From Catalimonadaceae bacterium JC749 (GTDB lineage Bacteria > Bacteroidota > Bacteroidia > Cytophagales > Cyclobacteriaceae): DNA of 64,000 nucleotides. Shown in pieces: positions 48,842 to 62,276 of the stretch. The notes under the pieces were generated by a model. The model ran no database searches. It worked only from the letters and a program-made list of their open reading frames with translations, and was not told where the DNA came from. Position numbers and translations under genes: made by a program. How positions within the stretch are numbered: the first letter of the stretch is position 1; the number at the start of each line of letters is the position of its first letter. The stretch spans positions 1-64,000 of the forward strand of contig JAJNNC010000010.1 in the NCBI GenBank assembly GCA_021730635.1, in the 5' to 3' direction.

Positions 48842-49201
48842 CTAGGTAAAGCCTTCCGTAGTTTCCCAGAGGAGTATGTCTGATTTCATCCAGTATTGGG
48901 TGAGCATTAAAATCATCATAGCATTCGTTAGTACATAGAAGCTTCTAAGCAGAGGAGCAGGCAAGTATTTCCTCAGGAACAGTTGGCTGGATTTTCTGGT
49001 CATTCCGCCATGCAGAAGTCCAATTAGTAGCAGTAGTAAAATATCGGTGAGGGCTGCTTTTCCTGTAGTGCCTGATGAATGAGACAGTGTAGGCCCTATA
49101 GTAAAGGAGTCGCTGGCTGTAAAATCAAATAGAAAGACAGTAGCACCCAGGGCTGCCAAGTAACTACGGACGCCAAGTAAGGCTGACAATAACTTTTTCA
49201 T
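48842..49201 (-). pseudogene. C-terminally truncated MddA/NnrU-like membrane methyltransferase
   Basis: A 119-residue membrane protein that matches only the N-terminal half of the methanethiol S-methyltransferase (MddA)/NnrU branch of isoprenylcysteine methyltransferase-like proteins. It shows the first membrane segment (GVRSYLAALGATVFLFDFTASDSFTIGPTL), the second (ALTDILLLLLIGLLHGGMTRKSSQLFLRKYLP) and APLLRSFYVLTNAMMILMLTQYW. In family members this is followed by roughly another 100 residues with the SAM-binding segments, which are missing: a stop follows WETTEGFT and the next gene begins 89 bp on. The conserved HSVMAR motif reads HGGMTR. It is either a pseudogene or a truncated membrane protein with a new role. 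It follows a short ORF driven by the first operator array. Confidence 0.6.
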
Positions 49202-49290
49202 CAATACAAAAGGTATGTTTTCAACATAAGTTGATCTCATGGGTAGGGCTGAGTATAAGGTAAACCTGACGAATCAGATCAGACCACAGT

Positions 49291-49464
49291 TCAATCTTTA
49301 AAAACCGTTTCCTGGCTTGTAGGGACAAGCAGGTTGGGAAAAAAATGAACAGCCCTCAAGGCTTCGGTCTTAGCAGCATCCTTTGCTCCTATCATCAGAG
49401 GATATCGGTACGCAATCCCTGCAATAACCAGGAGAATCATCAGCCATCTTACAATCTTTTTCAT
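49291..49464 (-). CDS. Small membrane or exported protein (57 residues)
   Basis: A short gene of 57 residues starting at the ATG at 49464, with N-terminus MKKIVRWLMILLVIAGIAY. This is a positively charged start and one hydrophobic segment, so a membrane-anchored or secreted small protein. The rest (RYPLMIGAKDAAKTEALRAV, then HFFPNLLVPTSQETVFKD) has no known family. Support for its reality is its position: the ATG lies 26 nt after a TAGCTTTG -7 element and a full four-repeat operator array, with a leader motif (ACAATGATTCAACTGA) shared with other genes of the cluster. It is followed on the same strand by the truncated MddA-like gene. Confidence 0.6.
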   Translation of the reverse strand: MKKIVRWLMILLVIAGIAYRYPLMIGAKDAAKTEALRAVHFFPNLLVPTSQETVFKD

Positions 49465-49490: not shown

Positions 49491-49582
49491 CAAAGCTAAT
49501 GGATAGGCTGTTAAGGGACGAATTTTACAGGTAAGCAGATGGTGAACAGCGTTCTAAAGACAAGTAGACAAGAAGTGAACAA
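49491..49582 (-). promoter_or_regulatory. Operator array A and -7 element, minus strand
   Basis: Four 9-bp direct repeats on the minus strand: TTGTTCACT (49574-49582), TTGTCTACT (49563-49571), CTGTTCACC (49541-49549) and CTGCTTACC (49530-49538). Start-to-start spacing is 11-22-11. The last repeat ends 31 bp before TAGCTTTG (49491-49498), a match to the Bacteroidota -7 element TANNTTTG. No TTTG -33 box is seen. It drives the 57-residue ORF and probably the truncated MddA-like gene. Confidence 0.75.
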
Positions 49583-49656
49583 AAGACTGAAAATGCCTTT
49601 TTACAATCTTATTGGCAGCTCCTCCTTAAATTGTACGAGAAATATAAATAATTATC

Positions 49657-50415
49657 CTAGCGCACAGATATCCTATTTTCTTCCGAGTGTAGGGCACTGG
49701 CTAGATTTCTTTCAAAGGCGGCTATTCGCTCGGAAGGATACAGGGTGATTGCTTTTCTGATGTACTGTTGAGATTTCTGCCTGTTCTGCTGTCTGTATTC
49801 CTCAAGGGCCAGATTATAGTACTGTAGACCCGCTAACTGCCGAAGTTGTATCGGGCGGTGGATGAGTGGAGCGGAAATACTCAGCGCCTGATGATACTGA
49901 TCAGCCTCTTCCAGAAAGTGATCTATCCGTTGCTGTATTTCCTGCAAATCGGTGATCCATCCTTGCTGCGGATCGGTAGTTTCAAACATCACCTGCATGC
50001 CTGCTATTGGCACGGTCAGGTAAACATGATAATTCATCTCCCATATTTGGTAAGGAATTTCCAGCCTGTCCAACAGCAACGCATAGAGGGCGGTTCCTGA
50101 TACACAATTATAATGACCTTGGGTGAGAAGGTTCTCTACCGTGCTGTATTCCTTATATTTTTTCAGTACTTGGCGATGGACCGTGTAAAACACAGATTTC
50201 AGGAAATGCAGCTCATTTTTTTGTTTTAGTTTTTTAGCCTCTAACTGTCGTACCATAGCCTCTATCGCTTCAGAAATCTCAGATGGCACTGGTATATCAT
50301 AAAAGTATTGCAGTTTTTGTGGCTGCCCCGTCGTATTTAATGACAAAGAGAAGGCAGAAGCATTTCCTTCACCAAAGAAAAGCAGGATCATAATGATGAG
50401 CAATGGCTTTTTCAT
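49657..50415 (-). CDS. Secreted transglutaminase-like protein with a TPR tail
   Basis: A 252-residue exported protein (signal MKKPLLIIMILLFFGEGNASAF). The core resembles the transglutaminase/cysteine-protease fold with a full triad: Cys104 (GHYNCVSGTALYALLL), His130 (EMNYHVYLTV) and Asp148 (FETTDPQ). The C-terminal part has a TPR-like helical pair (LRQLAGLQYYNLALEEYRQQNRQKSQQYIRKAITLYPSERIAAF). Proteins of this kind act on peptide or amide bonds in the periplasm; the substrate is unknown. It is divergent from the TPR-HTH regulator gene, with 438 bp between them. No operator repeat faces this gene, so it is probably outside the array regulon. Confidence 0.75.
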   Translation of the reverse strand: MKKPLLIIMILLFFGEGNASAFSLSLNTTGQPQKLQYFYDIPVPSEISEAIEAMVRQLEAKKLKQKNELHFLKSVFYTVHRQVLKKYKEYSTVENLLTQGHYNCVSGTALYALLLDRLEIPYQIWEMNYHVYLTVPIAGMQVMFETTDPQQGWITDLQEIQQRIDHFLEEADQYHQALSISAPLIHRPIQLRQLAGLQYYNLALEEYRQQNRQKSQQYIRKAITLYPSERIAAFERNLASALHSEENRISVR

Positions 50416-50771
50416 AACAGACGGTTTAGTGGCACCTGAAGCAGCGCCGTATGTCGATGATCTATAAGATTTAGTATAAGAAGGTAGGAGATTGGTAACC
50501 TAACCATTGACGCTATGCCTTGAAAAATTTTGTTCCTGGCGCCATGATCCTTCGTTGCTGTGCTGTCTTAAAGTGATGGCAGGGAAACTGGTAGATTTCA
50601 GGGAAGTTGTTATCTGAAAAAAATATATCATACCTCTTCTTTGTCATCAACATTGAGATAGCAGTCATGCCCCGGTGTTGGGTGAACCCATGATCAAGGC
50701 TGGCGCCGGATGGTTTGGATCAACCCTGCTGTTAGAAACCCGTTTCCTTTATTTTTTTAGTTAATACAGGG
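50416..50771. other. Intergenic region before the regulator gene
   Basis: Left part of the 438-bp divergent gap. A single ATTGGTAACC occurs near 50492; the same 10-mer occurs twice upstream of the di-haem peroxidase gene (56876 and 56897). No gene, RNA or terminator was recognised. The positions where a second pair of operator repeats would be expected (about 50739-50758) carry no match. Confidence 0.4.
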
Positions 50772-50830
50772 CTGTACACTAATTGTCTACCCGTCAGATT
50801 CGCCCCTTTGGAGGAAAGCTGTTAGGTTTG
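50772..50830 (+). promoter_or_regulatory. Operator pair B and -7 element of the TPR-HTH regulator gene
   Basis: One pair of repeats, CTGTACACT (50772-50780) and TTGTCTACC (50783-50791), with the same 11-bp period as the other arrays. The second ends 31 bp before TAGGTTTG (50823-50830); the regulator ATG follows at 50854. The upstream pair of the four-repeat arrays is missing. This fits weaker or autoregulatory control of the regulator gene. Confidence 0.7.
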
Positions 50831-50853
50831 AGAAATTTTAACATAACACTTCT

Positions 50854-52731
50854 ATGCAATTCAACTATGTTCTTTATAGCAAGCTGCTGCTCATTATCTT
50901 TGTCAGTCTGAAGGTGGTTTCTGGGCAGGCCCAGGATCGTATGGCCATTCTTCAACCCCTGAAAAAACTGTCCTCCGACAAAGAAAAAGTAAGTTACCTG
51001 GAAACGCATATCAATGAGATCATCAGACAGGCACCTGCAGAAGCGCTGTATTTTGCCGAAATCGCTGATTCTCTTTTACAAAGGATAGATTCGCTGGCCT
51101 GGAAGCTGGAGATACAAAGATTAAAAGCCTTAGCCTACCGGGAAATGGGTGACTATGAAAAAGCTACTAAAACCCTGGAGCAAATTTCCCTTCAAATATC
51201 TCCTACAGATACGGTAGCTTCTATGGTGGCTATTCAGGCTAGAATTTATATCAACCTGGCTTCTCTGCACCGCCGTAAAGGTGATACGGAGCAAGCCCTT
51301 TCCCTGAATATCCAGGCTGCTCAGCTACTGGACTCACTGGTAATGCGCTTTCCTGGCCATAAGAAATACATGCAAAATCAGGGTTTGGCATTCAGCGGAT
51401 TAGGAATGATACATGCTGCTTTGGATAACCACAAGCTATCCAACGATTATTTTCAAAAAGCGCTGATCGTTCATCAAAAGCTTGGGGACCGGCAACAAAT
51501 TGCTTACATGCTTTTTAATTTAGGCTCTAACTTTTATAAAAAAGAAGTATTTGATTCGGCAGAAGTCTACTGGACCCGGGGCATACAATATATAGATACT
51601 ACCCAACAGGTGACGCTTTTGGAAGCGTACTACTATAATCTGGGTGCCTTAAAGACAACTGAAAAAAAGTGGGAGGAAGCTATCCGGTATTATCATATGG
51701 CGATGCAACTGGTGAAAAAAACCGGGAATCAGGAAGAACTGGCCAAAGCTTACGAATCACTGGCCAACCTTTATATTGAGAAAGGTGATTATCAACAAGC
51801 CGAAAAAGTGGCTTATACAGCCTTATCTTTAGTCAAAGATGGCCTGGCCACCAAAGTTCGTATCCATGCGGATCTGGCATCCATCTATGAAAAGACAGGA
51901 CAGTTGCCAAAGGCGATCACGTATTATCAAAAGTACACCTTACTGCAGGATTCCCTGACTAATGTGGAGAAAAACCGGGCCATTGCCGAAATGGAGGCGA
52001 AATACCAGCATGACCAACAGCAGAAAGAACTCAAATTGCAAAGCCAGCAGATCGAGCTTTTGTCTCAGGACAACCAGATCAAGCGGCTTACCCGGAATAT
52101 GCTGGCGTTGGCGGTAGTCCTGCTGCTGCTAGTCGGCTTTTTTGTCGTCCGTACCCAGCATCTCCGGATGAAACGCAAACAGGAACAACTGGAACATTCC
52201 CGCTCTTTGCTGGCTTCACAGCAGGAAAATGCTATGCTCAGAGAACAAAAACTGCGGCAGGAACTGGAACACAGAAACCAGCAACTGACCTCGTATACCC
52301 TGAATTTTATCCAGAAAAATGAACTGCTGGAAGAGTTAAAAGAAAATGTGGAGGTTTTGCAAAAACAAAAGCAATGGACGGCGCAGGATTTCCGTTCCCT
52401 TAAACATTTGATTCAGCAACATGTGACTATTGACCAGGACTGGGCGTCTTTCAAAATGCATTTTGAGAGTGTACACCCTGACTTTTTCGTAAACCTGAAT
52501 GAAGCCTTTCCCGAACTGGGACCTCGTGAGATGAAGCTCTGTGCGCTCATTCGGCTGAACCTGAATATCAAAGAATCGGCTTTGGTGCTGGGGATTTCAC
52601 CGGATAGCGTGAAAACCGCCCGCCATCGGGTTCGTAAAAAAATGAATCTGGAACAGGAAGACAATATTGTAGAGGTGCTGTTACAGGTAGAAAAGGGTCA
52701 TTACGAAAGAGCTGTGCTATTGGCTAGTTAA
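50854..52731 (+). CDS. Membrane TPR-HTH transcriptional regulator, candidate master of the operator arrays
   Basis: A 625-residue regulator with a signal peptide (KLLLIIFVSLKVVSGQA) and a periplasmic array of TPR helices (about residues 55-375, for example EEAIRYYHMAMQLVKKTGNQEELAKAYESLANLYIEKGDYQQAEKVAYTALSL). One membrane segment lies near residues 412-433 (MLALAVVLLLLVGFFVV), followed by a coiled coil. The C-terminal LuxR/GerE-like HTH spans about residues 553-600 (ELGPREMKLCALIRLNLNIKESALVLGISPDSVKTARHRVRKKM). Bacteroidota have many such one-component membrane regulators. Its own promoter carries one pair of the repeats found upstream of six other transcripts nearby, so it is the leading candidate to bind them. 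That link is inference from position. Confidence 0.88.
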   Translation: MQFNYVLYSKLLLIIFVSLKVVSGQAQDRMAILQPLKKLSSDKEKVSYLETHINEIIRQAPAEALYFAEIADSLLQRIDSLAWKLEIQRLKALAYREMGDYEKATKTLEQISLQISPTDTVASMVAIQARIYINLASLHRRKGDTEQALSLNIQAAQLLDSLVMRFPGHKKYMQNQGLAFSGLGMIHAALDNHKLSNDYFQKALIVHQKLGDRQQIAYMLFNLGSNFYKKEVFDSAEVYWTRGIQYIDTTQQVTLLEAYYYNLGALKTTEKKWEEAIRYYHMAMQLVKKTGNQEELAKAYESLANLYIEKGDYQQAEKVAYTALSLVKDGLATKVRIHADLASIYEKTGQLPKAITYYQKYTLLQDSLTNVEKNRAIAEMEAKYQHDQQQKELKLQSQQIELLSQDNQIKRLTRNMLALAVVLLLLVGFFVVRTQHLRMKRKQEQLEHSRSLLASQQENAMLREQKLRQELEHRNQQLTSYTLNFIQKNELLEELKENVEVLQKQKQWTAQDFRSLKHLIQQHVTIDQDWASFKMHFESVHPDFFVNLNEAFPELGPREMKLCALIRLNLNIKESALVLGISPDSVKTARHRVRKKMNLEQEDNIVEVLLQVEKGHYERAVLLAS

Positions 52732-52793
52732 TGTAGGGGTTGGGTTTTACGGCAAGTGGCAGCGCGATTATTGAGTAGACAACATAAAAAATG

Positions 52794-52818
52794 AAGAGCC
52801 CCAGGAGGGCTCTTTTTT
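52794..52818. terminator. Rho-independent terminator between convergent genes
   Basis: An 8-bp perfect stem (52794-52801 with 52807-52814), loop CAGGA, followed by TTTT on the plus strand. It ends the regulator transcript. On the minus strand the stem is followed by CATTTTTT, so it can also serve the converging small gene. Confidence 0.85.
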
Positions 52819-52840
52819 CATGTATAGGGGTCAGAACGGT

Positions 52841-53221
52841 TTATTTTTTAAACTTATGATTTCGTACGAGATAGTCATAAGAAATTTGGTGATGCGCTTT
52901 GATCACATGCACCGGACGCCGGGTTTTTCGTAAAATATAAGCTTTGTTTTTCAAAATAGCGATGCCTGAAGCTACCGTAAGCGCAGAGGCTTCCGAAATT
53001 TCTACACTGGCGATTGTGGCGGCATCAACTACCTGACCGGGTTTTACCTTAGGGTTTAGTTTGTGGTTTCGGTTTAATCCCCGGGCCGATTCTGACAGCA
53101 GAGAAGGATGAAGACTGGCTACACGACTGGTATCCACCCCGGAGTAGCCGCTTTTAGCCATCACATTGGCACTCAATACTAACATAAGTAAACCACTGAA
53201 GAAAATTTGATGATAATTCAT
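52841..53221 (-). CDS. Small secreted protein of unknown function
   Basis: A 126-residue exported protein starting at the ATG at 53221 (MNYHQIFFSGLLMLVLSANVMA, then cleavage before KSGYSG). The mature part is basic and has a glycine-poor strand-rich middle (KPGQVVDAATIASVEISEASALTVASGIAILKNKAYILRKTRRP) and a C-terminus ending in KFKK. No family is recognised. Its promoter is one of the full four-repeat operator arrays (C), with TATCTTTG about 50 bp upstream of the start, so it is a member of the candidate regulon. It converges on the regulator gene with a shared terminator. Two in-frame ATGs lie six bases apart; the downstream one is used here. Confidence 0.7.
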   Translation of the reverse strand: MNYHQIFFSGLLMLVLSANVMAKSGYSGVDTSRVASLHPSLLSESARGLNRNHKLNPKVKPGQVVDAATIASVEISEASALTVASGIAILKNKAYILRKTRRPVHVIKAHHQISYDYLVRNHKFKK

Positions 53222-53271
53222 GATCATAAAGGTTAAAGTTGAAACATGTAAACGGGTTTGTTTTGCTTGTT

Positions 53272-53364
53272 CAAAGATACGTTCGTTCGGAGCATGGTGG
53301 TAAATGTATCAGGTATACAACAGGTCTACAGCCTGCCCAATCAGTGTAGACAAAAGGTGATCAG
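53272..53364 (-). promoter_or_regulatory. Operator array C and -7 element, minus strand
   Basis: Minus-strand repeats, farthest first: CTGATCACC (53356-53364), TTGTCTACA (53345-53353), CTGTAGACC (53323-53331) and TTGTATACC (53312-53320). Spacing is 11-22-11, and the last repeat ends 32 bp before TATCTTTG (53272-53279). The spacing is identical to arrays E, F and G. It faces the small secreted-protein gene that starts at 53221. Confidence 0.75.
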
Positions 53365-53390
53365 GATTTGAAAAAGCATTTTTTGTAGGG

Positions 53391-53613
53391 TCAAGAAGCG
53401 TTTTCTGCCACCTCAAGACTGTCCATCAAATGTCGTAAGCTACCAGAAAGCTTTGAGTCAGGATCGACAAGATACCCCATCCAGGCAGGTTGGCTACTCG
53501 GCTATATCTTCCCCCAGTTGAGCAGCCAAATAGGTGGGATCGCTTGTGTTTGTGAGAAGCACTTCTATCGGGTAAATTTTAACAATATTTGCTAATACCT
53601 CACAGTCAGCTGC
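53391..53613 (-). pseudogene. Frameshifted remnant of a lost gene between arrays C and D
   Basis: On the minus strand, a frame opening after a stop at 53614-53616 reads ADCEVLANIVKIYPIEVLL, then TNTSDPTYLAAQLGEDIAE, to a stop at 53494. One base out of frame the reading continues SSQPAWMGYLVDPDSKLSG, then SLRHLMDSLEVAENAS, to a stop at 53391. Both halves have clear coding character, and the 223-nt length equals 74 codons plus one base, as expected for a single frameshift. There is no start codon. It is probably the C-terminal remnant of an enzyme not recognised here. Confidence 0.5.
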
Positions 53614-53624
53614 TTATCGTTTAT

Positions 53625-53727
53625 TTGTTTACCTTTTGTTTACTGGCTATAAATGAATGGAGTCTCTATGTTTACTATTTGATTACTTCCCCCATTAGCA
53701 CCTGACTGGGATTCCTCCGTACCTTTG
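53625..53727 (+). promoter_or_regulatory. Operator array D and -7 element, plus strand
   Basis: Repeats TTGTTTACC (53625-53633), TTGTTTACT (53636-53644), ATGTTTACT (53668-53676) and TTGATTACT (53679-53687). The two pairs each have an 11-bp period, but the gap between the second and third starts is 32, not 22, about one helical turn more than in the other arrays. The last repeat ends 32 bp before TACCTTTG (53720-53727). The lipoprotein start is at 53950, leaving a leader of about 220 nt. Confidence 0.7.
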
Positions 53728-53925
53728 TAAAGCCATGCAAGATACTTTATGAGTATGGCCTGGTAACTTATATCCATGAGCCCATATTAGGTCTTTATAA
53801 GACAAAAGTTTACCGCTGATACAACACTATAGCTAAAGATTTCTCTCGGTCGCAGCCTTCTTCAAACCAGCATTATTACTGATGGGAAAGAGGCGCTACC
53901 CGCAATTTCTACTTATTTATTATTA

Positions 53926-53949
53926 ATTTCTTCAATTATTCAAACAATT
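53926..53949 (+). promoter_or_regulatory. Shared leader motif before the three-repeat lipoprotein gene
   Basis: The last 24 nt before the ATG read ATTTCTTCAATTATTCAAAC and a short AT tail. The same TTCTTCAATNATTCAA core occurs just before the starts at 61233 (minus strand), 61851 and 62277. A shared untranslated leader suggests common post-transcriptional control or a common translation enhancer. Confidence 0.5.
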
Positions 53950-54735
53950 ATGAAAACAAAAATTAGTTTATGTCTTGTTGTCTTTACCCTTTTATTCGGA
54001 TGTAATAAGGAAGATGAGGTCTACCCTTCGCAGGATAGCAGCGAAGGAGGTGAGACCACGGAAGCAGAATTTGTTGACGTAGTCATAGATCCGGAAACCG
54101 GAGAACCTGTGGCTACCAATTTTGATCTGTATCCTGCTTTGGATTGGAGTGAAAAAAATGATGCAGCGCTAAACAGTGCCAGTATAGGAGGACAAATTAT
54201 TCATGAATTTTCTCAAAATCTGGGCACTGCACCCAATAATGCACTGGAAGTATTCCACAACCTGCCTCCCGGCTATGCGCTGACAGGGATCGGCCTGCGA
54301 ATCAGCAATGATAATGTGACGACCATGGTGATTGAGCAGCGTTTTATTAATGACAATGGATCGTTGGGTCCTCGCTACAGAACGTATCATGGTACAGCGC
54401 CCAATCATCAGCTTGAAGTGTGGTATGCCGTTCCTGAAGGGTATCTGATTACGGGGCTAGGGATTCGAGTGAATAATGGGAATGTTACCACGCTGCGGGT
54501 ATATCACCAAAAAATTGATGAGAGTTCTACCACTAACAATATTGTCTTAGATGATTTTCGTCGTATAACCTCGGTAGGTACAGCCCCCACTCACCCGCTT
54601 GAGATAGACTTTGAGACCAGGCTTTTTACCTCTATTCCTCATCGGACCGTACTGACCGGCATAGGATTCCGTTGTAATAATGATAACATCACCACCCTGA
54701 AAGCCCAGTTGGGTTATTTACAATTTCAAAATTGA
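53950..54735 (+). CDS. Lipoprotein with three internal repeats
   Basis: A 261-residue lipoprotein (lipobox TLLFGC) with an acidic linker and three related units of about 55-75 residues. The repeated core reads LTGIGLRISNDNVTTM, then ITGLGIRVNNGNVTTL, then LTGIGFRCNNDNITTL. The first and second cores are preceded by GTAPN..LEV(F/W)...P.GY; the third by GTAPTHPLEI. Such threefold repetition suggests a three-faced beta structure, possibly beta-prism or trefoil-like, often seen in carbohydrate-binding surface proteins. No known family could be named with confidence. It is driven by operator array D and is monocistronic as far as can be seen; the next plus-strand gene is far away. Confidence 0.75.
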   Translation: MKTKISLCLVVFTLLFGCNKEDEVYPSQDSSEGGETTEAEFVDVVIDPETGEPVATNFDLYPALDWSEKNDAALNSASIGGQIIHEFSQNLGTAPNNALEVFHNLPPGYALTGIGLRISNDNVTTMVIEQRFINDNGSLGPRYRTYHGTAPNHQLEVWYAVPEGYLITGLGIRVNNGNVTTLRVYHQKIDESSTTNNIVLDDFRRITSVGTAPTHPLEIDFETRLFTSIPHRTVLTGIGFRCNNDNITTLKAQLGYLQFQN

Positions 54736-55493
54736 GCCTCCCCCTCTGCCGTCTGTGGTTGAGGGGTTCCCAAACTGAGAGTACGTTCTTTTCCACTGAG
54801 TGGAGAAAGCGGTAAAAAATGCGGGTGTAGGGAAGGGACTTTCTCGTGCCAATATACAGGTATCAGGAAGTCCCTAAACCTTTTATAAGAAGGGGTATCT
54901 TTGGAACTGGCTATCAACAGATATCTTCCCTTTCACTATGGCATTAATGTTATGGTATAAAAACGATCATAAGACAATCTCAAATAAAATAGGGATGACT
55001 CGCTTTTTTTCATCGGCTCAATCGCTCAAGTTATAGGGCTGAACAAGGTATGCCTGCAAGCCTGATGCGTCATGAAATTCTTCCTGGTCAAGCATACCTG
55101 TGGGTTGCGTTGAAAAAAATAAACAGGTATCCAAAACGCAGATGATCAGGTCTTGTAAATGCTGATTTCCTACCTGCCCTTCGATTCTATCAAATAATTT
55201 TTTTACGCCTTAGGGGCATCACTTTCAGCACGTAGGTTCCGGACGCTATGCCTGGGCAACAGTATGTTTTTGGAGGTATGGTTGGTTGAACAGATCCGGA
55301 TAGAAAGTATTGCGCTTCATGATGGATTCCGGCAGCGGATCAGATCATCGCTTATAGCGTAAAAGATATGAAAGCAACATGGACGCCAAAGGCGTCCATG
55401 CTTTTTCCAGAAGGTGAAACAATTCTGGATGCAGTGACTGATCTTCTCTTTGCACCTAAAGAAGAGGTCAATACGGAGAATAGTGCATTGAAG
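54736..55493. other. Long gap between convergent transcripts, no intact gene
   Basis: About 760 bases separating the three-repeat lipoprotein gene from the end of the minus-strand five-gene operon. Short frames occur but lack coding character. A minus-strand stretch ending at 55190 reads GIASGTYVLKVMPLRRKKII, similar to the end of a type IX secretion sorting domain, and may be a relic. A strong stem-loop lies at 55378-55400. Confidence 0.4.
55378..55406. terminator. Strong stem-loop with T tract
   Basis: A perfect 10-bp stem (55378-55387 with 55391-55400), a 3-nt AAA loop and the tail CTTTTT on the plus strand. On the minus strand it lies about 90 bp beyond the stop of the di-haem peroxidase gene, where it may mark the end of the five-gene operon. 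The better T tract, however, points to a plus-strand transcript. Confidence 0.65.
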
Positions 55494-56846
55494 TCAGAAA
55501 CCAAATCCCAGATCCGCCCTGGACAAAGTGTCGTTGTTAGGAAATGCCAACCCTGAGGGAAGCGCATCGGGTGCATAGCGGTTCAGCTGTGGATCGTATA
55601 GTGCATGTTCTATAAAATCCGTGATCTGATCTATTTCTTCTTCCGTAAGCCGCAAAGGGTGGAAGGCATCGGCCAGCTGGCTTTCCGGCACAAGAGGATT
55701 CTGAGATACTGCCCGGTTTTTATATTCAACCACTTCTCTCACAGACTGGAAGGAAGCGCCATGCCCGTAAAAGGGTGAATCTTTCAGGTTATAAAGCTGT
55801 GGTACTTTGAATTTATAGTTGTCTTCCGTCCGTCCGGTAAAGCCACCCCGCCCTCTGTGTTCAGGACTATTGGGCTTGCTCAGGAAAATGTCTGCTCCTA
55901 TCAGATCGTTCATGCCCAACGCATGAAATTCCATACTGTTGAGGGCAGGCCCGTTGTGGCAGGTAGCACACTGCGCTTTACCGAAGAACAGGATAGCGCC
56001 CTGCTTTTGCTGCTGGGTCAATGCACTGCTTTCTCCCCGCAACCACCGCTGAAAGGGAGCCTGATTGGCTAGGACGGTGCGTTCATAGGCGGCAATGGCC
56101 AACCCCATGGTCACTTTGGTGTAACGTTCCTGCACGCCAGTTTTCGGAAAGGCCGCATCAAACATGTGCTGGTAGTTGGTCTGAAAGAACAGGGAAGTAT
56201 CTATTGCCAGGCGATGTACGCCTAAGCCTGCTATGGCTTGGGTTTCCAGCCCTTCAAAACCCAGGACATTGTTTTCCTTAGGCGTGCCGGGTGTCCAGGC
56301 TGCTTCGGTACCTTCATTTACGCCGGTGGCGCCAAACTGTCCGTTCCACAACATGTTGGTCTGGTAAGCGCCATTCAGGATAGAAGGCGAACGGATGGGC
56401 TGTACATCCAGTGAATCCTCAGGACACAACTTGTTGGCTTGCCTTCCTTCCCCTGCCAGGCCAAAACCCTCTCCACCTTCTCCGATACCCTGTTTGCGGT
56501 TGGCCTGAAACCCTGCCTGTACATGATGGCAACTGGCACAGGAATAGGTCAGCATATTCTCAGGCATTTTGGATTTCACGGCTAGTCCTGTTTCGTGAAA
56601 CAATAGTTTACCCAGTGCCACCTTTTCAGGGGTGACCGGGTTTTTGGGGTCCTGCGGAAAACTTTTCAGATCATCGCTGGCAGGCAGTCTGTAAAAACGT
56701 TCTCCCTGGCCTGCGGAAGCCTGTTGTAAAGCTTGTGTTAGCTGCTGGTCCAGCTTATCTTTCTCCTGTAGCATATCCTCTTCCTGCTGGCATCCCATAC
56801 CTGCCAGGAGAAAAGTGAGCATGGTAAGTAAATGGTACTTTTTCAT
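55494..56846 (-). CDS. Di-haem cytochrome c peroxidase-family lipoprotein
   Basis: A 450-residue lipoprotein (lipobox LLAGMGC) with two c-type haem motifs: CASCH in the N-terminal half (TYSCASCHHVQAGFQANR) and CATCH in the C-terminal half (GKAQCATCHNGPALNS). The domain order and length fit the bacterial di-haem peroxidase/MauG family. Such proteins reduce hydrogen peroxide in the periplasm or oxidise a protein partner. It is the last gene of the operon that starts at the SAM methyltransferase and is driven by array E. A stem-loop and two copies of ATTGGTAACC lie in the 140-bp gap before it, so its expression may be adjusted separately. Confidence 0.88.
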   Translation of the reverse strand: MKKYHLLTMLTFLLAGMGCQQEEDMLQEKDKLDQQLTQALQQASAGQGERFYRLPASDDLKSFPQDPKNPVTPEKVALGKLLFHETGLAVKSKMPENMLTYSCASCHHVQAGFQANRKQGIGEGGEGFGLAGEGRQANKLCPEDSLDVQPIRSPSILNGAYQTNMLWNGQFGATGVNEGTEAAWTPGTPKENNVLGFEGLETQAIAGLGVHRLAIDTSLFFQTNYQHMFDAAFPKTGVQERYTKVTMGLAIAAYERTVLANQAPFQRWLRGESSALTQQQKQGAILFFGKAQCATCHNGPALNSMEFHALGMNDLIGADIFLSKPNSPEHRGRGGFTGRTEDNYKFKVPQLYNLKDSPFYGHGASFQSVREVVEYKNRAVSQNPLVPESQLADAFHPLRLTEEEIDQITDFIEHALYDPQLNRYAPDALPSGLAFPNNDTLSRADLGFGF

Positions 56847-56937
56847 AATAAATTGTATTGATGGGATATCAAAGATTGGTAACCCTTGATGAGCTATTGG
56901 TAACCCGGTCCTTCCAGGTGCCTACGCTCTGAGAGTG

Positions 56938-56978
56938 AAATCTTCCCGATCCTGTGCATGACCTTACCGGGAAGATTT
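56938..56978 (-). terminator. Stem-loop inside the five-gene operon
   Basis: A perfect 11-bp inverted repeat (56938-56948 with 56968-56978) with a 19-nt loop, 8 bp after the lipoprotein stop and about 90 bp before the peroxidase start. The minus-strand tail is TTTCACTC, a weak T tract. It could attenuate read-through into the peroxidase gene or protect the upstream mRNA. Confidence 0.5.
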
Positions 56979-56986
56979 CTGTCAGA

Positions 56987-57664
56987 TTATTCTGCCCGGT
57001 ACATAAAGCCAAACTGCTCTACCGCTTTGCCCTCCGGACCTAATTCTCCCCCGTAGATATGGCCATCCAAATGATAAGCGCCTACAATGTGTACCTCATA
57101 TTCATCTAAAAGACAGTCGGTCACACTCCCTAAGAAAGAAAGGTCGCCTTCCGGAACGGTCACCGAATAGGAAACTTTTCCATCGGAGCTGGCGATAAAG
57201 TAACCTTCTGTACCATCATGCGCCCCTGCCACACTCTCTCCGATCTGATGGGCGAAGGTGGGGTCAAAGCCCGGTTCTTCAAAAACCAGCACCCAGACAG
57301 AATAAGTACCGAAGGGTATCAGACCTTCAAGGTCCAGCTTGATCTCGGTGCCCTGTTCAGTACAGGTCATTTTCATTTTGCCTTTTACCGCATCAAACGC
57401 TTCCAGCGTAACAGGATCACCTCCGGGGGTCAGTACCGGATTTCCTTTTCTGCTCTCGAAAACGGGTGCCTCAGGATCTGTAGGGGCATTACCTTCTGCA
57501 TCGGCCAGGAACAGATGTATGGCTTCAATAGAGGAGGTGGTAAAAGAGGCTGTTTCCTCCTCATCCTCCTGGTCTTTTACATGGTCAAAAATGTCTTCCA
57601 GTTTGTGGCAACTGGCTAATACAGTAATGAATGCGATCATGAAGAAATTTACAAATGGTTTCAT
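56987..57664 (-). CDS. Putative lipoprotein of unknown function in the array-E operon
   Basis: A 225-residue protein starting at the ATG at 57664 (MKPFVNFFMIAFITVLASCHK, lipobox VLASC). The mature part is acidic and rich in strands (IHLFLADAEGNAPTDPEAPVFESRKGN, KMTCTEQGTEIKLDLEGLIPFGTYSVWVLVFEEPGFD, VSYSVTVPEGDLSFLGSV). It ends in LLDEYEVHIVGAYHLDGHIYGGELGPEG, so an immunoglobulin- or CHRD-like beta-sandwich is likely. No family could be named. It lies 63 bp after the amino-acid permease gene and before the di-haem peroxidase gene, so it is probably a periplasmic or surface partner of the latter. Confidence 0.65.
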   Translation of the reverse strand: MKPFVNFFMIAFITVLASCHKLEDIFDHVKDQEDEEETASFTTSSIEAIHLFLADAEGNAPTDPEAPVFESRKGNPVLTPGGDPVTLEAFDAVKGKMKMTCTEQGTEIKLDLEGLIPFGTYSVWVLVFEEPGFDPTFAHQIGESVAGAHDGTEGYFIASSDGKVSYSVTVPEGDLSFLGSVTDCLLDEYEVHIVGAYHLDGHIYGGELGPEGKAVEQFGFMYRAE

Positions 57665-57727
57665 AAGTGAATACAATTAAAATGGTTAGAAATAAAAGAG
57701 TGTTCAATTAATAGAATGAGATACTGA

Positions 57728-59137
57728 TCAAATCTTTCGGACTTTAGGTACGGGTCTTTTTTCCTTTTGCAGATGGTACGACAGCCCACTGACCAGCAGG
57801 GTCGTTCCCAGCAGGATCAACGCCCTGGAGCCGTAGTAAGCATGGGTACCTGCAAAAGCATAGTACAACCCGATGGTAGTAATGAGGATGCCTGCCACAG
57901 CCATAGCCGTTACCCAGTTTCCTGCAAAGGCTTTTGGAGCCATGGGATACAGCTTACGCTGAAAAATGACCAGCGTATGAAATACTATATACAGCAGTAT
58001 CCACACATAGGCAGCGGAAAAGATCCAGTCGATCACCTGACTGTTGTAGAGTGCCGGAATCATATAGAGTACAAAGGTGACCACGATGGCTACTACGGGT
58101 GACTGGTACTTAGGATGCAGTTTGGCCACTGGTTTTGAAAGCTTGCCAAATAACAGCTGGTCCTGGGCTATGCTGAACAGCAGCCGGGGCATTGCCGCAT
58201 AAGTGACGGTAAGTGTACCCAGGGTAGCGGCTACGGAAGCCAGGGCCATCAGGTAATACCCTACCAGCCCAAACATCTGATAACCGACCACCAGTTGGGG
58301 AGATTCTCCCTGATGACCAATCTCACTCTTGAGGGCCGCTTGCCATTCCGCCAGCGGTAAAGCGCCGGAGACCCCGATACCCATCACCAGGGAGGTGAGT
58401 AACACTAATACCAGCCCCATCACCAGGCCGCGGGACATGGATCGACTGGGATTTTTCACCTCTTCGGCCAGTGAGCAGGCAAATTCAATCCCGACAAAGC
58501 TCCAGAAAGCCAGTGCCAGGCCGGTGGTGAGTATGCCCTGGCTGCCGGTCCAGAAGTTGCCTTCTCCGTGGGTTTGCAGGTTAGCCCATGACCAGAGTTC
58601 CGTATTCCCCCAGCTTAGAAAGCCTGCCAGTCCGAAGAACCACCGGATGCCCAGCATCAGCAGTAGCAGGCCAAGACTGACCCAGGCTGTGGTACGAATT
58701 CCTAAAATATTTGGAATAATGGCCAGGATAGACAGGCAAAGAATATAAAACTGTAAGGGTATCTCCAGGCCAATCATGGCTTGTAACCCAAAGGCACCTG
58801 CGGCCGCTTCTCCGGCCATGGTCAGGGCAATCATCCCATAGAAGGATAAGCCCAGGAAAACCCCCAGGAATTTTCCGGTATTTCCTTGAAATATCTCCCT
58901 GGCATAGTTATACAAGGCCCCTGCTTTGGGATAGGCCGTGCTGAGTTCGGCAGCCGAGAGCCCTAGCAACAGGTTGATCAGAAAGCCTATCAATACAGCT
59001 ATCACAAAGGAAATTCCCAGGCTGAAATACCCATTGAAATCACTCACCAGAGTGCTCGCTGCTACGACCAGGGCGACACCCGCCACCATTACGTCGCGAG
59101 TACCCAGGCTTTTGGAAAATGTTGTTTTGTTTTTCAT
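57728..59137 (-). CDS. APC-superfamily amino-acid permease
   Basis: A 469-residue inner-membrane transporter with about twelve hydrophobic segments. Typical APC segments are LGTRDVMVAGVALVVAASTLVSDFNGYFSLG near the start, AELSTAYPKAGALYNYAREIF with the conserved Pro-x-Ala-Gly-Ala, and FWSFVGIEFACSLAEEVKNPSRSMSRGL. These fit the amino acid/polyamine/organocation group, resembling ethanolamine or GABA permease-type members. The start follows directly after the alpha/beta-hydrolase gene (61 bp). It is third in the array-E operon. The substrate is unknown; uptake of an amine or amino acid related to the methyltransferase product is a guess. Confidence 0.87.
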   Translation of the reverse strand: MKNKTTFSKSLGTRDVMVAGVALVVAASTLVSDFNGYFSLGISFVIAVLIGFLINLLLGLSAAELSTAYPKAGALYNYAREIFQGNTGKFLGVFLGLSFYGMIALTMAGEAAAGAFGLQAMIGLEIPLQFYILCLSILAIIPNILGIRTTAWVSLGLLLLMLGIRWFFGLAGFLSWGNTELWSWANLQTHGEGNFWTGSQGILTTGLALAFWSFVGIEFACSLAEEVKNPSRSMSRGLVMGLVLVLLTSLVMGIGVSGALPLAEWQAALKSEIGHQGESPQLVVGYQMFGLVGYYLMALASVAATLGTLTVTYAAMPRLLFSIAQDQLLFGKLSKPVAKLHPKYQSPVVAIVVTFVLYMIPALYNSQVIDWIFSAAYVWILLYIVFHTLVIFQRKLYPMAPKAFAGNWVTAMAVAGILITTIGLYYAFAGTHAYYGSRALILLGTTLLVSGLSYHLQKEKRPVPKVRKI

Positions 59138-59198
59138 TACGTTGAATACAAATGGAAGAAATTGTGTGTCGATTGTTACTTAATGATTCTCCTGGCTG

Positions 59199-60134
59199 CT
59201 AATGCTCCGCAGGAGTTGCCCTTCCGGACAGGCCTTGGGTTTCCTGCAGAAATTGCTCAACAGCTGTCAGGCATTCAGGGTACATCAGTATATCCAGATG
59301 ATTGGCCTTCGGGATGACTACCAGCGAGCTGCTGGGCAATTGCTGAAAAGGTGCTATGAAGTCGATCATGGGATCATCGTCGCCAATGATTAGCGCTACC
59401 GGGATGTTGTTCTGCCCGAGTTTCTTTTCGTCAACCTGGAAAAGCGCTTTAAAACCTATCAGGCAGTCTTGCAGTGCCTCATTACTTTGTCCTTCCAGAA
59501 TTTGTTGACTTAAGCTATCCAGTATTTCCTTGGTAGGCACAGGCTGCCTGGTGGACCAATACCACTCGAGCAAAGGATTGATCCCGGATTCGTTGGCCAG
59601 GTATTGTGCTGTTTTCACAAAGACCTGATAAAGCGGATGGGCTTCATAGAACTGCTGCTTTGTTAAAGGAGTACCGCCAACAAGAGCCGCACTTTTTACC
59701 CGATCTTTATGGTTGACCAGTAAATTCCCGATGATAAAGGCACCCATGGAATAACCTACCAGGTGTGCTTTTTCTATTTTCAAATGATCCATCAGGCGAA
59801 TGATATCCTCTTCCATGACTTTGCCATAGCTTTCCACACCGGTAGGTTTATCACTTTGCCCATGCCCCCGGGTATCTATGGCTACGACCTGGTACTTTTC
59901 TGCAAGTTTAGTCATGAAATCAGTCCCTGTAGGGGGTAAGGGTTGCTGAAAACATACCGGAATGTTATCAGTAACGCCATGAATCAGTATGACAGGTTCG
60001 CCGGTGCCGGCGGTCATGTAATGAAGCCTGACATGACCAGACTCAAAATAATGAGACGTCAGCGACTGTCCCAAAGCAGGAATCATTACCCCGAATAGCA
60101 GGAGGGTTCCGAAGAGTTTTATCTTTTTCATCAT
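59199..60134 (-). CDS. Exported alpha/beta hydrolase
   Basis: An exported protein of 311 residues (signal MKKIKLFGTLLLFGVMIPALGQ) with an alpha/beta-hydrolase fold. Visible motifs are the oxyanion segment VILIHGVTDN, the nucleophile elbow GYSMGAF with Ser129, an acidic residue in IIGDDDPMIDF and His in VIPKANHLDILMYPE. This matches the epoxide hydrolase/haloperoxidase-like group without the tyrosines typical of epoxide hydrolases. It lies 25 bp after the methyltransferase gene in the array-E operon. The product is likely periplasmic while the methyltransferase is cytoplasmic, so they do not act on the same pool directly. The substrate is unknown. Confidence 0.85.
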   Translation of the reverse strand: MMKKIKLFGTLLLFGVMIPALGQSLTSHYFESGHVRLHYMTAGTGEPVILIHGVTDNIPVCFQQPLPPTGTDFMTKLAEKYQVVAIDTRGHGQSDKPTGVESYGKVMEEDIIRLMDHLKIEKAHLVGYSMGAFIIGNLLVNHKDRVKSAALVGGTPLTKQQFYEAHPLYQVFVKTAQYLANESGINPLLEWYWSTRQPVPTKEILDSLSQQILEGQSNEALQDCLIGFKALFQVDEKKLGQNNIPVALIIGDDDPMIDFIAPFQQLPSSSLVVIPKANHLDILMYPECLTAVEQFLQETQGLSGRATPAEH

Positions 60135-60159
60135 AAATAAGTAGAAGTGAATGGAGTGA

Positions 60160-61233
60160 TTATTTCCGGATGACGTAATAACGGTTTTGAAAATCCTGTG
60201 GTAACAGATGCTCCCGGATTTCAGAAAACCCTGCTTCTTTCAGCATAACATTCGCTTTTTCACGACCCCACATAGTGCCTAGTCCCATGCCTCCCTGTGC
60301 CAGTGAGACTGTCATGCAGTGCATCGTAGAAACTGTATACAACAAAGGACCAATAGGGTGCTCCATGTTGTTTTCTACCCGGGAAGAAGCGTTTATGTCT
60401 ACCATCAGATAATAACCTCCTGCTTTCAGCGCCTGGTACACCCCTGCCAATACATTGTCGGGTCGTGCCTGATCATGGATAGCATCAAAAGCGGTGATAA
60501 AATCAAAGGGTTGCTCTGGCTGAAAATACGTCAGATCGCGCTGCTCAAAGTAAACATTGGTCAGTCCCTGTGCCTGGGCTTCTCGCCGGGCATTAACCAG
60601 GGGTTCTTCACACAGGTCATAGCCCACAAAGGTGCTGGCCGGGAAATGTTTTGCCATCAGATTAAGGGCTCTTCCGCTGCCGCATCCGATATCGAGTACC
60701 CGAATTCCTGCGGTCAGTTTTTCTTTAATATTGGGTACCAGAGGAAGCACCTCATTGATCAGGGAAGAGATTACGGCCAACCCGCTGTCTTCCACCATCA
60801 CTTCGTGAAAGCGGTTATACTGTTCGTAGGGTACGCCACCCCCTTCATAAAAGCAGCGCACCACAGCATCTTCCACATAAGCCAGCACCGGAATGTATTG
60901 TGCCAGAACGCCTACGTTATTGGATCCTGCTTTCCGGGTCAGGTAGGCCGCATGCTCAGACGGGAGCTCGTACGTTTGGTCTTTTGGATTGAACATAACG
61001 ATCTTTCCCGTTACCATAGCACCCAGCCATTCCCGCACGTAGCGTTCCTGCAACCCTGCCTTTTGGGCGATGACTTCACTGGTTGCCGGTGGAAGTTTGT
61101 CCATGGTATCAAATAAGCGGGTACGATGACCCACAGAAATCATCAGCGACAAAGCACCCTGATTCATGATACCTATTAATTGTTCGCCGAAAGCTTCGGC
61201 TTTTGTGGTGTCAAAAGAACATAGTTTACACAT
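60160..61233 (-). CDS. SAM-dependent methyltransferase with winged-helix N-terminal domain
   Basis: A 357-residue cytoplasmic methyltransferase. The N-terminal 100 residues form a winged-helix dimerisation domain (ALSLMISVGHRTRLFDTMDKLPPATSEVIAQKAGLQERYVREWLGAMV). The class I Rossmann domain follows with motif I VLDIGCGSGRALNLMAKHFP, then FVGYDLCEE and FDFITAFDAIHDQARP. This matches the Rv2258c-like group, whose members methylate small metabolites; the real substrate is unknown. The N-terminus MCKLCSFD has a CxxC pair. It is the first gene of a five-gene operon (methyltransferase, hydrolase, permease, lipoprotein, di-haem peroxidase) controlled by array E, with the shared leader motif at 61243-61266. 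Confidence 0.87.
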   Translation of the reverse strand: MCKLCSFDTTKAEAFGEQLIGIMNQGALSLMISVGHRTRLFDTMDKLPPATSEVIAQKAGLQERYVREWLGAMVTGKIVMFNPKDQTYELPSEHAAYLTRKAGSNNVGVLAQYIPVLAYVEDAVVRCFYEGGGVPYEQYNRFHEVMVEDSGLAVISSLINEVLPLVPNIKEKLTAGIRVLDIGCGSGRALNLMAKHFPASTFVGYDLCEEPLVNARREAQAQGLTNVYFEQRDLTYFQPEQPFDFITAFDAIHDQARPDNVLAGVYQALKAGGYYLMVDINASSRVENNMEHPIGPLLYTVSTMHCMTVSLAQGGMGLGTMWGREKANVMLKEAGFSEIREHLLPQDFQNRYYVIRK

Positions 61234-61242
61234 AATACTTAA

Positions 61243-61266
61243 TCAGTTGAGTTATTGAAGAAATTT
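61243..61266 (-). promoter_or_regulatory. Shared leader motif before the methyltransferase gene
   Basis: On the minus strand, between the -7 element at 61286-61293 and the start at 61233, the leader reads AAATTTCTTCAATAACTCAA and CTGATT. It is the same leader sequence found before the starts at 61851, 62277 (with an insertion) and 53950. Confidence 0.5.
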
Positions 61267-61285
61267 ATTATTCGTAAGCGTTACA

Positions 61286-61378
61286 CAAAGGTAAGGCAGA
61301 GAATAGCAAAGCGTAAAATGTAAAGGGTGAACAATAGGTAAACCTACTTTACGAATCGGGTAGACAATGAGTGGACAA
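61286..61378 (-). promoter_or_regulatory. Operator array E and -7 element, minus strand
   Basis: Minus-strand repeats, farthest first: TTGTCCACT (61370-61378), TTGTCTACC (61359-61367), AGGTTTACC (61337-61345) and TTGTTCACC (61326-61334). Spacing is 11-22-11. The last repeat ends 32 bp before TACCTTTG (61286-61293), which lies about 53 bp before the methyltransferase start. It drives the longest operon of the candidate regulon. Confidence 0.78.
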
Positions 61379-61682
61379 TTGCCTGTTTTATGACTTTTAT
61401 GCCTTTACAGGCTTGATTTGATGGCAAGTTCTGAAAATTTTGTCATCCGGAAATGCATTTTTAAAGAGAAAGGCGATGGCTTGTCAAGCTTGTATTCTGA
61501 TCCGGTGAAAGAGGTCAGAGAGGAATGTAAATAGCAGGTTGCGGAGAAAAGTCCGGAGCGTAAATACAGGAAGTGTTTGTCGGGTGAAAGTACATCAATA
61601 ATGATGGGAATAAAGTGAAAAGCAGGCTTTTGCTACTGGGATAAAAAGTGCCTTTTAGCGTACCAATGGCAAAAATGCCAAA
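61379..61682. other. Gap between divergent arrays E and F
   Basis: About 300 bases between the two arrays, which face away from each other. A 37-codon plus-strand frame from the ATG at 61421 to 61534 (beginning MASSENFVIRKCIF) has some coding character but no promoter element of its own. Nothing else was recognised. Confidence 0.35.
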
Positions 61683-61775
61683 TTGTCTACTTGTTGTCTA
61701 CCCGGAAAAAGAAGCTTGTTGACTTATTGTTGACCCGAAAAATTTTAAGATAGGTTACGTTCATCGCTATCTTTG
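61683..61775 (+). promoter_or_regulatory. Operator array F and -7 element, plus strand
   Basis: Repeats TTGTCTACT (61683-61691), TTGTCTACC (61694-61702), TTGTTGACT (61716-61724) and TTGTTGACC (61727-61735), the clearest copy of the array. Spacing is 11-22-11, and the last repeat ends 32 bp before TATCTTTG (61768-61775). It drives a short ORF at 61851 that may be frameshifted. Confidence 0.8.
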
Positions 61776-61793
61776 TGACAAATAAAATAAAAA

Positions 61794-61821
61794 GACCCGA
61801 CTATCACCGAATAGTAGGGTC
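61794..61821 (+). other. Hairpin in the array-F leader
   Basis: Arms 61794-61804 and 61811-61821 pair over 11 positions with one G-A mismatch around a 6-nt loop. It lies in the leader of the short ORF at 61851. The tail (AATAAAAATTT) is not a strong terminator, so it may protect the transcript or attenuate it. Confidence 0.45.
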
Positions 61822-61830
61822 AATAAAAAT

Positions 61831-61850
61831 TTCTTCAATGATTCAACTTA
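61831..61850 (+). promoter_or_regulatory. Shared leader motif before the array-F ORF
   Basis: The 20 nt directly before the ATG at 61851 read TTCTTCAATGATTCAACTTA. This is the clearest copy of the leader motif also found before the starts at 61233, 62277 and 53950. Confidence 0.55.
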
Positions 61851-62125
61851 ATGCGTAAAAGTACTGCGAATTCTGGTAAAAAACAAAAATTAATCAGACA
61901 AAAGTTATGGGCTGTATCCAATAGTTTTCTGTGGTCGCTGCTCTCCTGTTTGGAAGCGGAATTACTTTCTGTTTCTGGTCCGATCAGGAAAAGCCCACTT
62001 CCGGCGTAGCGTATCCTTTGAGAGCCGGCCTGCTGACAAAAAGCGGATGTCTGTCTTTCCACCTGACAAAGCGTGCGTGGTATTCAGCCAAAGGGTGTCT
62101 TTATAATTGCCTGATAATCAGATAG
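61851..62125 (+). pseudogene. Short ORF under array F, probably frameshifted
   Basis: The ATG at 61851 follows the shared leader directly and opens a frame of 52 residues (MRKSTANSGKKQKLIRQKLW, then AVSNSFLWSLLSCLEAELL) that stops at 62007-62009. One base out of frame, the reading from about 61931 continues VAALLFGSGITFCFWSDQEK and PTSGVAYPLRAGLLTKSG, with a clear membrane-like segment, to 62125. A basic N-terminus followed by a membrane segment in the other frame suggests a small membrane protein of about 90 residues broken by one frameshift. The first frame alone could also be the true product. Confidence 0.4.
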
Positions 62126-62134
62126 TGGCAATGA

Positions 62135-62227
62135 ATGTATACTTTTTGTCTACCTGCTGGGGAAAGGCTGTAAACTTATTGTTCACCTGTTAAATTTTAT
62201 GATACGGGAGCAGCCTCCTTACCTTTG
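62135..62227 (+). promoter_or_regulatory. Operator array G and -7 element, plus strand
   Basis: Repeats ATGTATACT (62135-62143), TTGTCTACC (62146-62154), CTGTAAACT (62168-62176) and TTGTTCACC (62179-62187). Spacing is 11-22-11, and the last repeat ends 32 bp before TACCTTTG (62220-62227). Repeat-to-repeat and repeat-to-promoter distances are identical to arrays E and F. A split copy of the leader motif (62236-62264) precedes the lipoprotein start at 62277. Confidence 0.8.
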
Positions 62228-62276
62228 CTCCTGTTCATTTCTTCAATAATTATGTTTCAACTTAACGATTAAAAAA

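Follow-up and report, generated by a model that had tools for sequence, protein, structure and literature searches.

Seven promoters within a 64,000-nucleotide stretch of the genome of Catalimonadaceae bacterium JC749 (Bacteroidota; assembly GCA_021730635.1, contig JAJNNC010000010.1, positions 1 to 64,000 of the forward strand; hereafter the window) were found to be preceded by phased direct repeats of the heptamer TGTNNAC. Inside the same region lies a gene (50854–52731) for a 625-amino-acid protein with tetratricopeptide repeats (TPRs), a predicted transmembrane (TM) helix and a C-terminal helix-turn-helix (HTH) domain. We propose that a family of membrane-tethered one-component activators of Bacteroidota uses the repeat arrays as operators and that its member in the window is the product of 50854–52731, and assign this reading a probability of about 0.8.

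Seven promoters of the window share a phased repeat array

The TGTNNAC direct repeats precede seven promoters on both strands between positions 49491 and 62227, where the initial annotation had placed arrays of 9-bp repeats, and all seven arrays and their -7 elements were recovered with the positions and spacing given there. The repeat unit is best given as the heptamer TGTNNAC plus a 4-nt spacer. Unit starts are spaced 11-22-11 in arrays A, C, E, F and G and 11-32-11 in array D, and array B is a single 11-bp pair. A TANNTTTG -7 element is present in 7/7 promoters. It starts 32 nt behind the last TGTNNAC in A and B and 33 nt behind it in the other five, which equals the 31–32 bp reported earlier in the 9-bp frame. 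In line with the earlier assignment of the -7 element to a Bacteroidota type, TANNTTTG-type elements are the consensus of Bacteroidota σA promoters (PMC9723704, PMC7366714). The features are as follows.

49531..49581, minus strand: array A, units at 49581, 49570, 49548 and 49537 (11-22-11)
49491..49498, minus strand: -7 element of promoter A, TAGCTTTG, 32 nt past the last unit
50773..50790, plus strand: array B, one 11-bp pair 5' of the candidate regulator gene
50823..50830, plus strand: -7 element of promoter B, TAGGTTTG, 32 nt past the pair
53313..53363, minus strand: array C, units at 53363, 53352, 53330 and 53319 (11-22-11)
53272..53279, minus strand: -7 element of promoter C, TATCTTTG, 33 nt past the last unit
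53626..53686, plus strand: array D, units at 53626, 53637, 53669 and 53680 (11-32-11)
53720..53727, plus strand: -7 element of promoter D, TACCTTTG, 33 nt past the last unit
61327..61377, minus strand: array E, units at 61377, 61366, 61344 and 61333 (11-22-11)
61286..61293, minus strand: -7 element of promoter E, TACCTTTG, 33 nt past the last unit
61684..61734, plus strand: array F, units at 61684, 61695, 61717 and 61728 (exact 11-22-11)
61768..61775, plus strand: -7 element of promoter F, TATCTTTG, 33 nt past the last unit
62136..62186, plus strand: array G, units at 62136, 62147, 62169 and 62180 (exact 11-22-11)
62220..62227, plus strand: -7 element of promoter G, TACCTTTG, 33 nt past the last unit

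With up to one mismatch allowed, 15 TGTNNAC pairs 11 bp apart were found in the window (13 of them within arrays) compared with 3.24 expected, and none of 100 shuffles reached 15. When a pair matching at least 9/10 positions was combined with TANNTTTG at 32–33 nt, the window contained seven matches, all at 49–64 kb and six of them with an upstream pair, whereas positions 1–49000 and 200 dinucleotide shuffles contained none. A TTTG box at -33 is absent from these promoters, as had been noted; a reading with no -33 element at all is only partly right, since TTT ending 21–22 nt 5' of TANNTTTG is the consensus of 25 aligned arrays. By inspection, ATTT occupies this place in four of the seven window promoters (C, E, F and G) and is missing from A, B and D. 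The TTT consensus suggests that the -33 contact at these promoters may be weak and not absent.

Array promoters occur elsewhere in the genome and in related genomes

The initial annotation had called for a scan of the whole genome and of relatives against a control, and both were run. In the source assembly (genome G000; 8.0 Mb, 86 contigs, labelled C1–C86), an exact pair followed after 28–37 nt by TANNTTTG occurred six times, in each case with a gap of 32 or 33 nt (reversed-pattern control, 0); four of these matches lie in the window and two outside it (C1:665.0 kb and C86:57.9 kb). Exact tetrads (gap 14–15) numbered five in the 8.0 Mb, namely F, G, C2:75.8 kb, C86:69.3 kb and C86:70.5 kb (control, 0). 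The tetrad at C2:75.8 kb precedes a gene coding, by sequence, for a TonB-type outer-membrane protein and has a 5/6 match to the -7 element at 32 nt, and a degenerate promoter with one good pair was read 5' of a gene at C3:9.6 kb that looks like an alpha/beta hydrolase gene.

A search of 148 genomes of the same family, the source genome included, with the pair, N32–33 and TANNTTTG gave 24 matches in 13 genomes (control, 0 throughout). Array promoters are not confined to the window and are found in other lineages too. The query did not include the upstream units of the 18 matches from other genomes, eight of which had an upstream pair (at least 8/10 positions), always at -32 or -33. Among the 12 offsets listed, the best of 74 by mean score, those with at least four strong matches were -21 (5/18), -22, -32 and -33 (4/18 each); offset -53 ranked third by mean score with only two strong matches, the background rate of strong matches being 1.3%. 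The only other genome of the same genus among the 148 (G025) had no motif match and no regulator homologue at E ≤ 1e-60. A chance origin of the arrays was rejected by the shuffle, reversed-pattern and multi-genome controls, which bears out the earlier judgement that their spacing is very unlikely by chance.

Arrays are associated with genes for TPR–TM–HTH candidate regulators

The candidate regulator gene sits behind array B, inside the interval that the initial annotation had delimited. TPR–TM–HTH proteins are common in the family: a seven-sequence profile (A1) had a match at E ≤ 1e-60 in 67 of the 148 genomes, including all 13 array genomes. At E ≤ 1e-120, a homologue was present in 11/13 array genomes versus 10/135 others (p = 1.9e-9, with G135 counted as an array genome despite the accidental appearance of its sole match), and after removal of the four genomes that supplied the profile in 7/9 versus 10/135 (p = 2.8e-6). 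Sequence context of up to 20 kb was taken for 15 of the 18 matches from other genomes, and in four of these (L079, L081, L082 and L086) a relative of the regulator is encoded on the same strand, its gene ending 58–287 bp ahead of the proximal pair.

The association was also found starting from the protein. In public genomes, 90 relatives were detected, the best 80 of which were kept as loci, and the 760 nt after each regulator gene were scored over four units and the -7 element (maximum 26; array-like, at least 19). An array-like promoter followed the gene in 41/80 relatives, compared with 20/1,693 tiles of real DNA from the same loci (Fisher test, 1.4e-45). Some control tiles are themselves arrays (L097, L103, L106 and L109). 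When loci were grouped by hand to genus or isolate, the proportion was 26/58. These tiles superseded a letter-shuffled control, in which 27/80 loci scored at least 20 and none did so when shuffled. Under a strict rule (pair of at least 9/10 and exact TANNTTTG), 15/80 loci have a promoter anywhere and nine of these have it just after the gene. The records with array-like promoters comprise Flammeovirgaceae or Cytophagales metagenome-assembled genomes (MAGs), Chryseotalea, Lewinella, Neolewinella, Terrimonas, Flavihumibacter, Hufsiella, one Rhodothermia MAG, and the Flavobacteriaceae Aquimarina, Croceivirga, Flagellimonas, Allomuricauda and others. The association is thus seen in Cytophagales-type, Flavobacteriaceae, Lewinella-type and Chitinophagaceae records and in one of Rhodothermia; by inspection, the Flavobacteriaceae form usually has one distal and two proximal units.

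The Lipoprotein_15 protein encoded behind array G gave a further route to the arrays. Used as a query, it had matches in 26/148 genomes (38 match rows, corresponding to 30 loci), and an array scoring at least 19 was present upstream of 8/30 loci versus 0/120 control tiles. The eight arrayed loci belong to G000, G033, G055, G071, G124 and G147, all of which have a regulator homologue at E ≤ 1e-170; the arrays of G033, G055 and G147 had been missed by the strict motif search.

In L095 and L097, the genes of two relatives of the regulator (each 47% identical) are themselves preceded by an array, just as array B precedes the regulator gene in the window. These own-gene arrays (L095 3908, L097 1208) read as 11-13-11 and not as 11-22-11, possibly a separate layout for autoregulation. 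Together with array B they suggest that the regulator gene may be autoregulated.

Several observations weigh against the proposed regulator–operator pairing. Some motif matches look accidental, for example L063, the sole match of G135, which lies in GC-rich DNA and has no upstream pair, and the two exact tetrads on C86 have no TANNTTTG-like box (at least 5/6) at 25–44 nt. No regulator homologue was found in the fetched stretch of 10/15 contexts from other genomes (L089 has a TPR-only match), and the stretch of L093 contains, instead of such a homologue, a response regulator gene with a related HTH that ends 15 bp before the pair; this match has no upstream pair, and the neighbourhood is probably due to chance. 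The figure of 41/80 counts partial matches under a score that was set after the arrays had been seen, and the 80 loci are not independent, several being close relatives and L100, L108 and L135 being the same places as the motif-found L082, L081 and L086. After the gene, 39/80 relatives score below 19, suggesting that some members of the regulator family may recognise different sites or act on targets farther away, and no Bacteroidales, Marinifilum or Ancylomarina record among the best 80 of the 90 relatives reaches this score. Moreover, 22/30 Lipoprotein_15 loci lack an array. With regard to autoregulation, array B is only a pair, its counterparts in relatives are spaced 11-13-11, and no array stands before the gene of L141, a third close relative, whose reading frame is interrupted. 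Finally, inverted repeats are frequent binding sites of GerE domains in other proteins.

The candidate regulator and its proposed mode of action

50854..52731, plus strand: candidate regulator gene, 625 amino acids, with a signal-like N-terminus, TPRs, a predicted TM helix at about 416–432, a helical linker and an HTH at 557–613

The HTH at 557–613 is predicted to be a four-helix domain of GerE/sigma-R4-like type. An AlphaFold2 model built from 51 sequences had a mean predicted local distance difference test score (pLDDT) of 85.9, with values below 50 at 454–485. Among the 51 aligned relatives, Pfam matches were to TPR_12 (51/51), TPR_MalT (39/51), Sigma70_r4_2 (35/51) and GerE (23/51); the window protein itself matches Sigma70_r4_2 weakly (E 0.0024). 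As judged by hydropathy alone, a membrane helix lies between TPRs and HTH in 51/51 relatives, a signal-like N-terminus is present in 34/51, and the more positive flank of the helix is on the HTH side in 45/51. Foldseek searches with the sensor part matched TPR proteins, including LGN, consensus TPRs and Rap; the HTH was not resolved among the 50 matches listed. Three tandem paralogues of the regulator lie just outside the window (G000:C2:67748–73164; L042 7748–13164). Their C-terminal halves read nearly identical, and the first differs in its sensor part, which reads as a recent duplication with sensor exchange.

From the domain plan, the regulator would consist of a periplasmic TPR sensor, one TM helix, a cytoplasmic helical linker and the C-terminal GerE/sigma-R4-like HTH. 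A periplasmic signal would bring protomers together, and their HTH domains would then bind the TGTNNAC heptamers; heptamer and 4-nt spacer make one helical turn, and this spacing places all units on the same side of the helix. If the -7 box is set at -12 to -5 (PMC9723704), binding would be cooperative to a proximal pair at about -62 to -45 and a distal pair at about -95 to -78, three turns apart. The bound regulator would recruit σA RNA polymerase to TANNTTTG promoters with a degenerate -33 box; activation by the arrays is plausible. A more far-reaching version is a long shot: in a phylum-wide circuit, the periplasmic TPR receptor would sense an exported peptide or envelope signal, a tethered tetramer on the four-site array would replace -33 recognition, and the 57-codon product of promoter A could be an autocrine signal. 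The predicted TPR fold does match Rap pheromone receptors, which stand among many TPR structures in the Foldseek matches.

Alternative explanations of the arrays

Could the arrays be repressor or dual-function operators, with the same protein at -45 to -95 preventing transcription and not driving it? The direction of regulation is not readable from sequence, and array B may be a negative feedback site. We nevertheless consider this unlikely, as activation is better matched by the fixed distance to the -7 element, by sites lying ahead of the -33 region and by the degeneracy of the -33 element, and a repressor would more often overlap the -7 element or the start site.

It is also improbable that the arrays are bound by an OmpR/PhoB-like winged-helix response regulator or by a SARP-like protein whose gene lies elsewhere, with the TPR–TM–HTH gene as only one of the targets or a frequent neighbour. 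Direct repeats of 11 bp are typical of PhoB and OmpR, and most motif-only matches have no TPR–HTH gene in the fetched stretch. SARP operators likewise use 11-bp direct repeats (PMC10936776, PMC5930380). Yet the genome has five Trans_reg_C (PF00486) matches over the cut-off. The nearest are separated from an array by about 155 kb on C1 and 196 kb on C2, and the remaining ones are on contigs without a full array; with none of the five within 150 kb of a full array, an OmpR/PhoB-type regulator was rejected. Furthermore, 9/15 strict-rule loci of relatives have the array downstream of the regulator gene and in its orientation, so that the gene is not the target there, and the association recurs across the lineages named above.

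That the likeness of the arrays stems from a duplicated promoter cassette rather than a conserved operator is very unlikely: promoters D, E, F and G and the TonB promoter at C2:75.8 kb do share a leader before the start codon that could be a cassette relic, but the spacers (unit to unit and array to -7) read unlike each other among the seven promoters, and the same layout stands before unrelated genes in other genera.

Comparison with known regulatory systems

The initial annotation had likened the arrays to operators of the actinobacterial SARP regulators. SARPs bind DNA through an OmpR-like winged helix plus a BTA domain; the candidate regulator has no Trans_reg_C or BTA match and is matched by TPR and Sigma70_r4_2/GerE models instead. 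The operators of SARPs such as AfsR and PimR consist of direct repeats 11 or 22 bp apart (PMC10936776) built from a heptamer and a 4-nt spacer (PMC5930380), and they act in activation beside a poor -35 element (both papers); AfsR also carries TPRs. In SARP operators, however, 8 bp separate the final repeat from the -10 element, compared with 32–33 nt to the -7 element in all seven window promoters. Other differences are the GerE/sigma-R4-like HTH, the tetrads, the predicted membrane helix, the phylum and the repeat sequence. The likeness of geometry thus stands, whereas the fold of the associated regulator and the operator position differ, and SARP membership was rejected because the repeat spacing fits but the -7 distance and HTH fold do not.

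MalT, of the STAND/LAL regulators, binds DNA through a C-terminal LuxR-type HTH, and its boxes differ from the arrays in sequence and layout. Like the candidate, it joins a TPR-type superhelical sensor to a DNA-binding domain on one chain; its cooperative binding to several boxes and recruitment of RNA polymerase (PMC4381067 for all three traits) are what the window regulator would do as well. The candidate differs in that a membrane helix parts sensor from HTH and in that no NOD ATPase was found: no ATPase domain is among the Pfam matches of the window regulator or among the 25 of 50 families listed for the 51 members. As a protein with LuxR-type HTH and TPRs but without the NOD/AAA+ ATPase, it was not assigned to the MalT/STAND LAL family. 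Its best NCBIfam match is the BT3442 family (NF053779), over TPRs and HTH (E 1.6e-17, residues 128–605), at 63.4 bits against a cut-off of 940, and it is therefore not a member of that family; among the literature listed, the one paper with the term BT3442 was, by its title, on a MACPF structure. In ToxR/CadC-type regulators, as in the candidate, one protein combines a periplasmic sensor, one membrane helix and a cytoplasmic DNA-binding domain, but their domain order is opposite, they have a winged helix rather than a GerE-like HTH, and they lack a TPR sensor.

The literature searched, mostly open-access and partly through incomplete listings, contained no description of this operator/regulator system and no binding site described for TPR–TM–HTH proteins, in agreement with the earlier remark that no Bacteroidota system with this layout was known. 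To our knowledge, few activator–promoter geometries are known in Bacteroidota, and an operator at a fixed spacing from a known -7 element would make TPR–TM–HTH regulons predictable from sequence and open to direct testing. If the proposed pairing is true, a SARP-like operator geometry is combined with an unrelated DNA-binding fold, which suggests that one-turn heptamer arrays are a convergent solution. The recurrent targets (the Lipoprotein_15 run, fatty-acid hydroxylase, TonB proteins and methyltransferase) offer a starting point for the signal.

Putative target genes

49291..49464, minus strand: putative first gene of promoter A, 57 codons, hydrophobic N-terminus (MKKIVRWLMILL...)
48842..49240, minus strand: open reading frame (ORF) read after the 57-codon ORF of promoter A
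52841..53227, minus strand: putative target of C, 128-amino-acid secreted-looking protein, no Pfam or NCBIfam match
53950..54735, plus strand: putative target of D, 261-amino-acid lipoprotein-like protein, no Pfam or NCBIfam match
60160..61233, minus strand: putative target of E, methyltransferase with an Rv2258c-like HTH_65 domain, by domain match
62277..63065, plus strand: putative target of G, Lipoprotein_15 protein, first gene of a run

The run behind G continues with 63059–63892 and, beyond the window, with YceI and DUF5777 genes. Putative targets of similar kind recur across lineages. Relatives of the Lipoprotein_15 protein are also found in L103, L106, L109 and L124, behind arrays or array-like promoters, and targets in L105, L113 and L137 look, by sequence start, like the second gene of the G run. 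L107 (Pfam) and L116 (by sequence start) each have a relative of the E target behind a regulator gene plus array-like promoter, TonB-type receptors lie behind the regulator loci L157, L161, L150 and L172 (Pfam for L161, sequence start for the others), and the commonest target in Flavobacteriaceae is a fatty-acid hydroxylase (Pfam run for L104). When the ORFs of 16 loci, from relatives or the source genome, were searched by BLAST for the products of A, C and D, nothing matched at 1e-3.

Downstream of promoter A, the ORF 48842–49240 matches only the N-terminal half of the methanethiol S-methyltransferase MddA (NF045656, 1–115 of 238, below cut-off) and is possibly truncated. No convincing intact gene follows promoter F: in 61841–62140, a 52-codon ORF overlaps a signal-peptide-like stretch in another frame, possibly a decayed gene or an RNA. 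A di-haem cytochrome c peroxidase/MauG-type gene (55494–56846) also lies inside the interval, and no array was found before it.

A common leader of putative array-controlled genes

A common leader, TTTCTTCAATNATTCAAC, was observed directly 5' of the start codon in array-controlled genes. Its sites in the window are 53927–53947, 61243–61263, 61830–61850 and about 62236–62276, and outside it C2:75695–75711 and upstream of C3:9556. On reading, D, E, F and the TonB gene have TTTCTTCAAT(N)ATTCAAC or a close form before the start codon, and G has it with an insertion. The leader core had nine genome matches with up to one mismatch compared with one in the control, and four of the nine lie behind arrays. 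The best five matches among 276 ORF upstream regions belong to E, D, the TonB gene, the C3 gene and G; these regions are the ORFs of the window and of 14 own-genome loci, most of them picked for motif matches and not at random. In the source genome, matches to TTTCTTCAAT..TTCAAY concentrate on the putative regulon. As a family-wide RNA element this motif is unsupported, a few matches with up to one mismatch occurring in each of 127/148 genomes, and Rfam models detected no known RNA element at 48–64 kb up to E = 1. The leader may act in translation, or it may be left over from promoter duplication.

61794..61850, plus strand: leader of transcript F, a hairpin at 61794–61821 followed by TTTCTTCAATGATTCAACTTA

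The hairpin in F is of the form GACCC...GGGTC (z -3.1), and a hairpin of the same form (about 5695–5722, z -3.0) precedes the leader in the Lipoprotein_15 transcript of L096.

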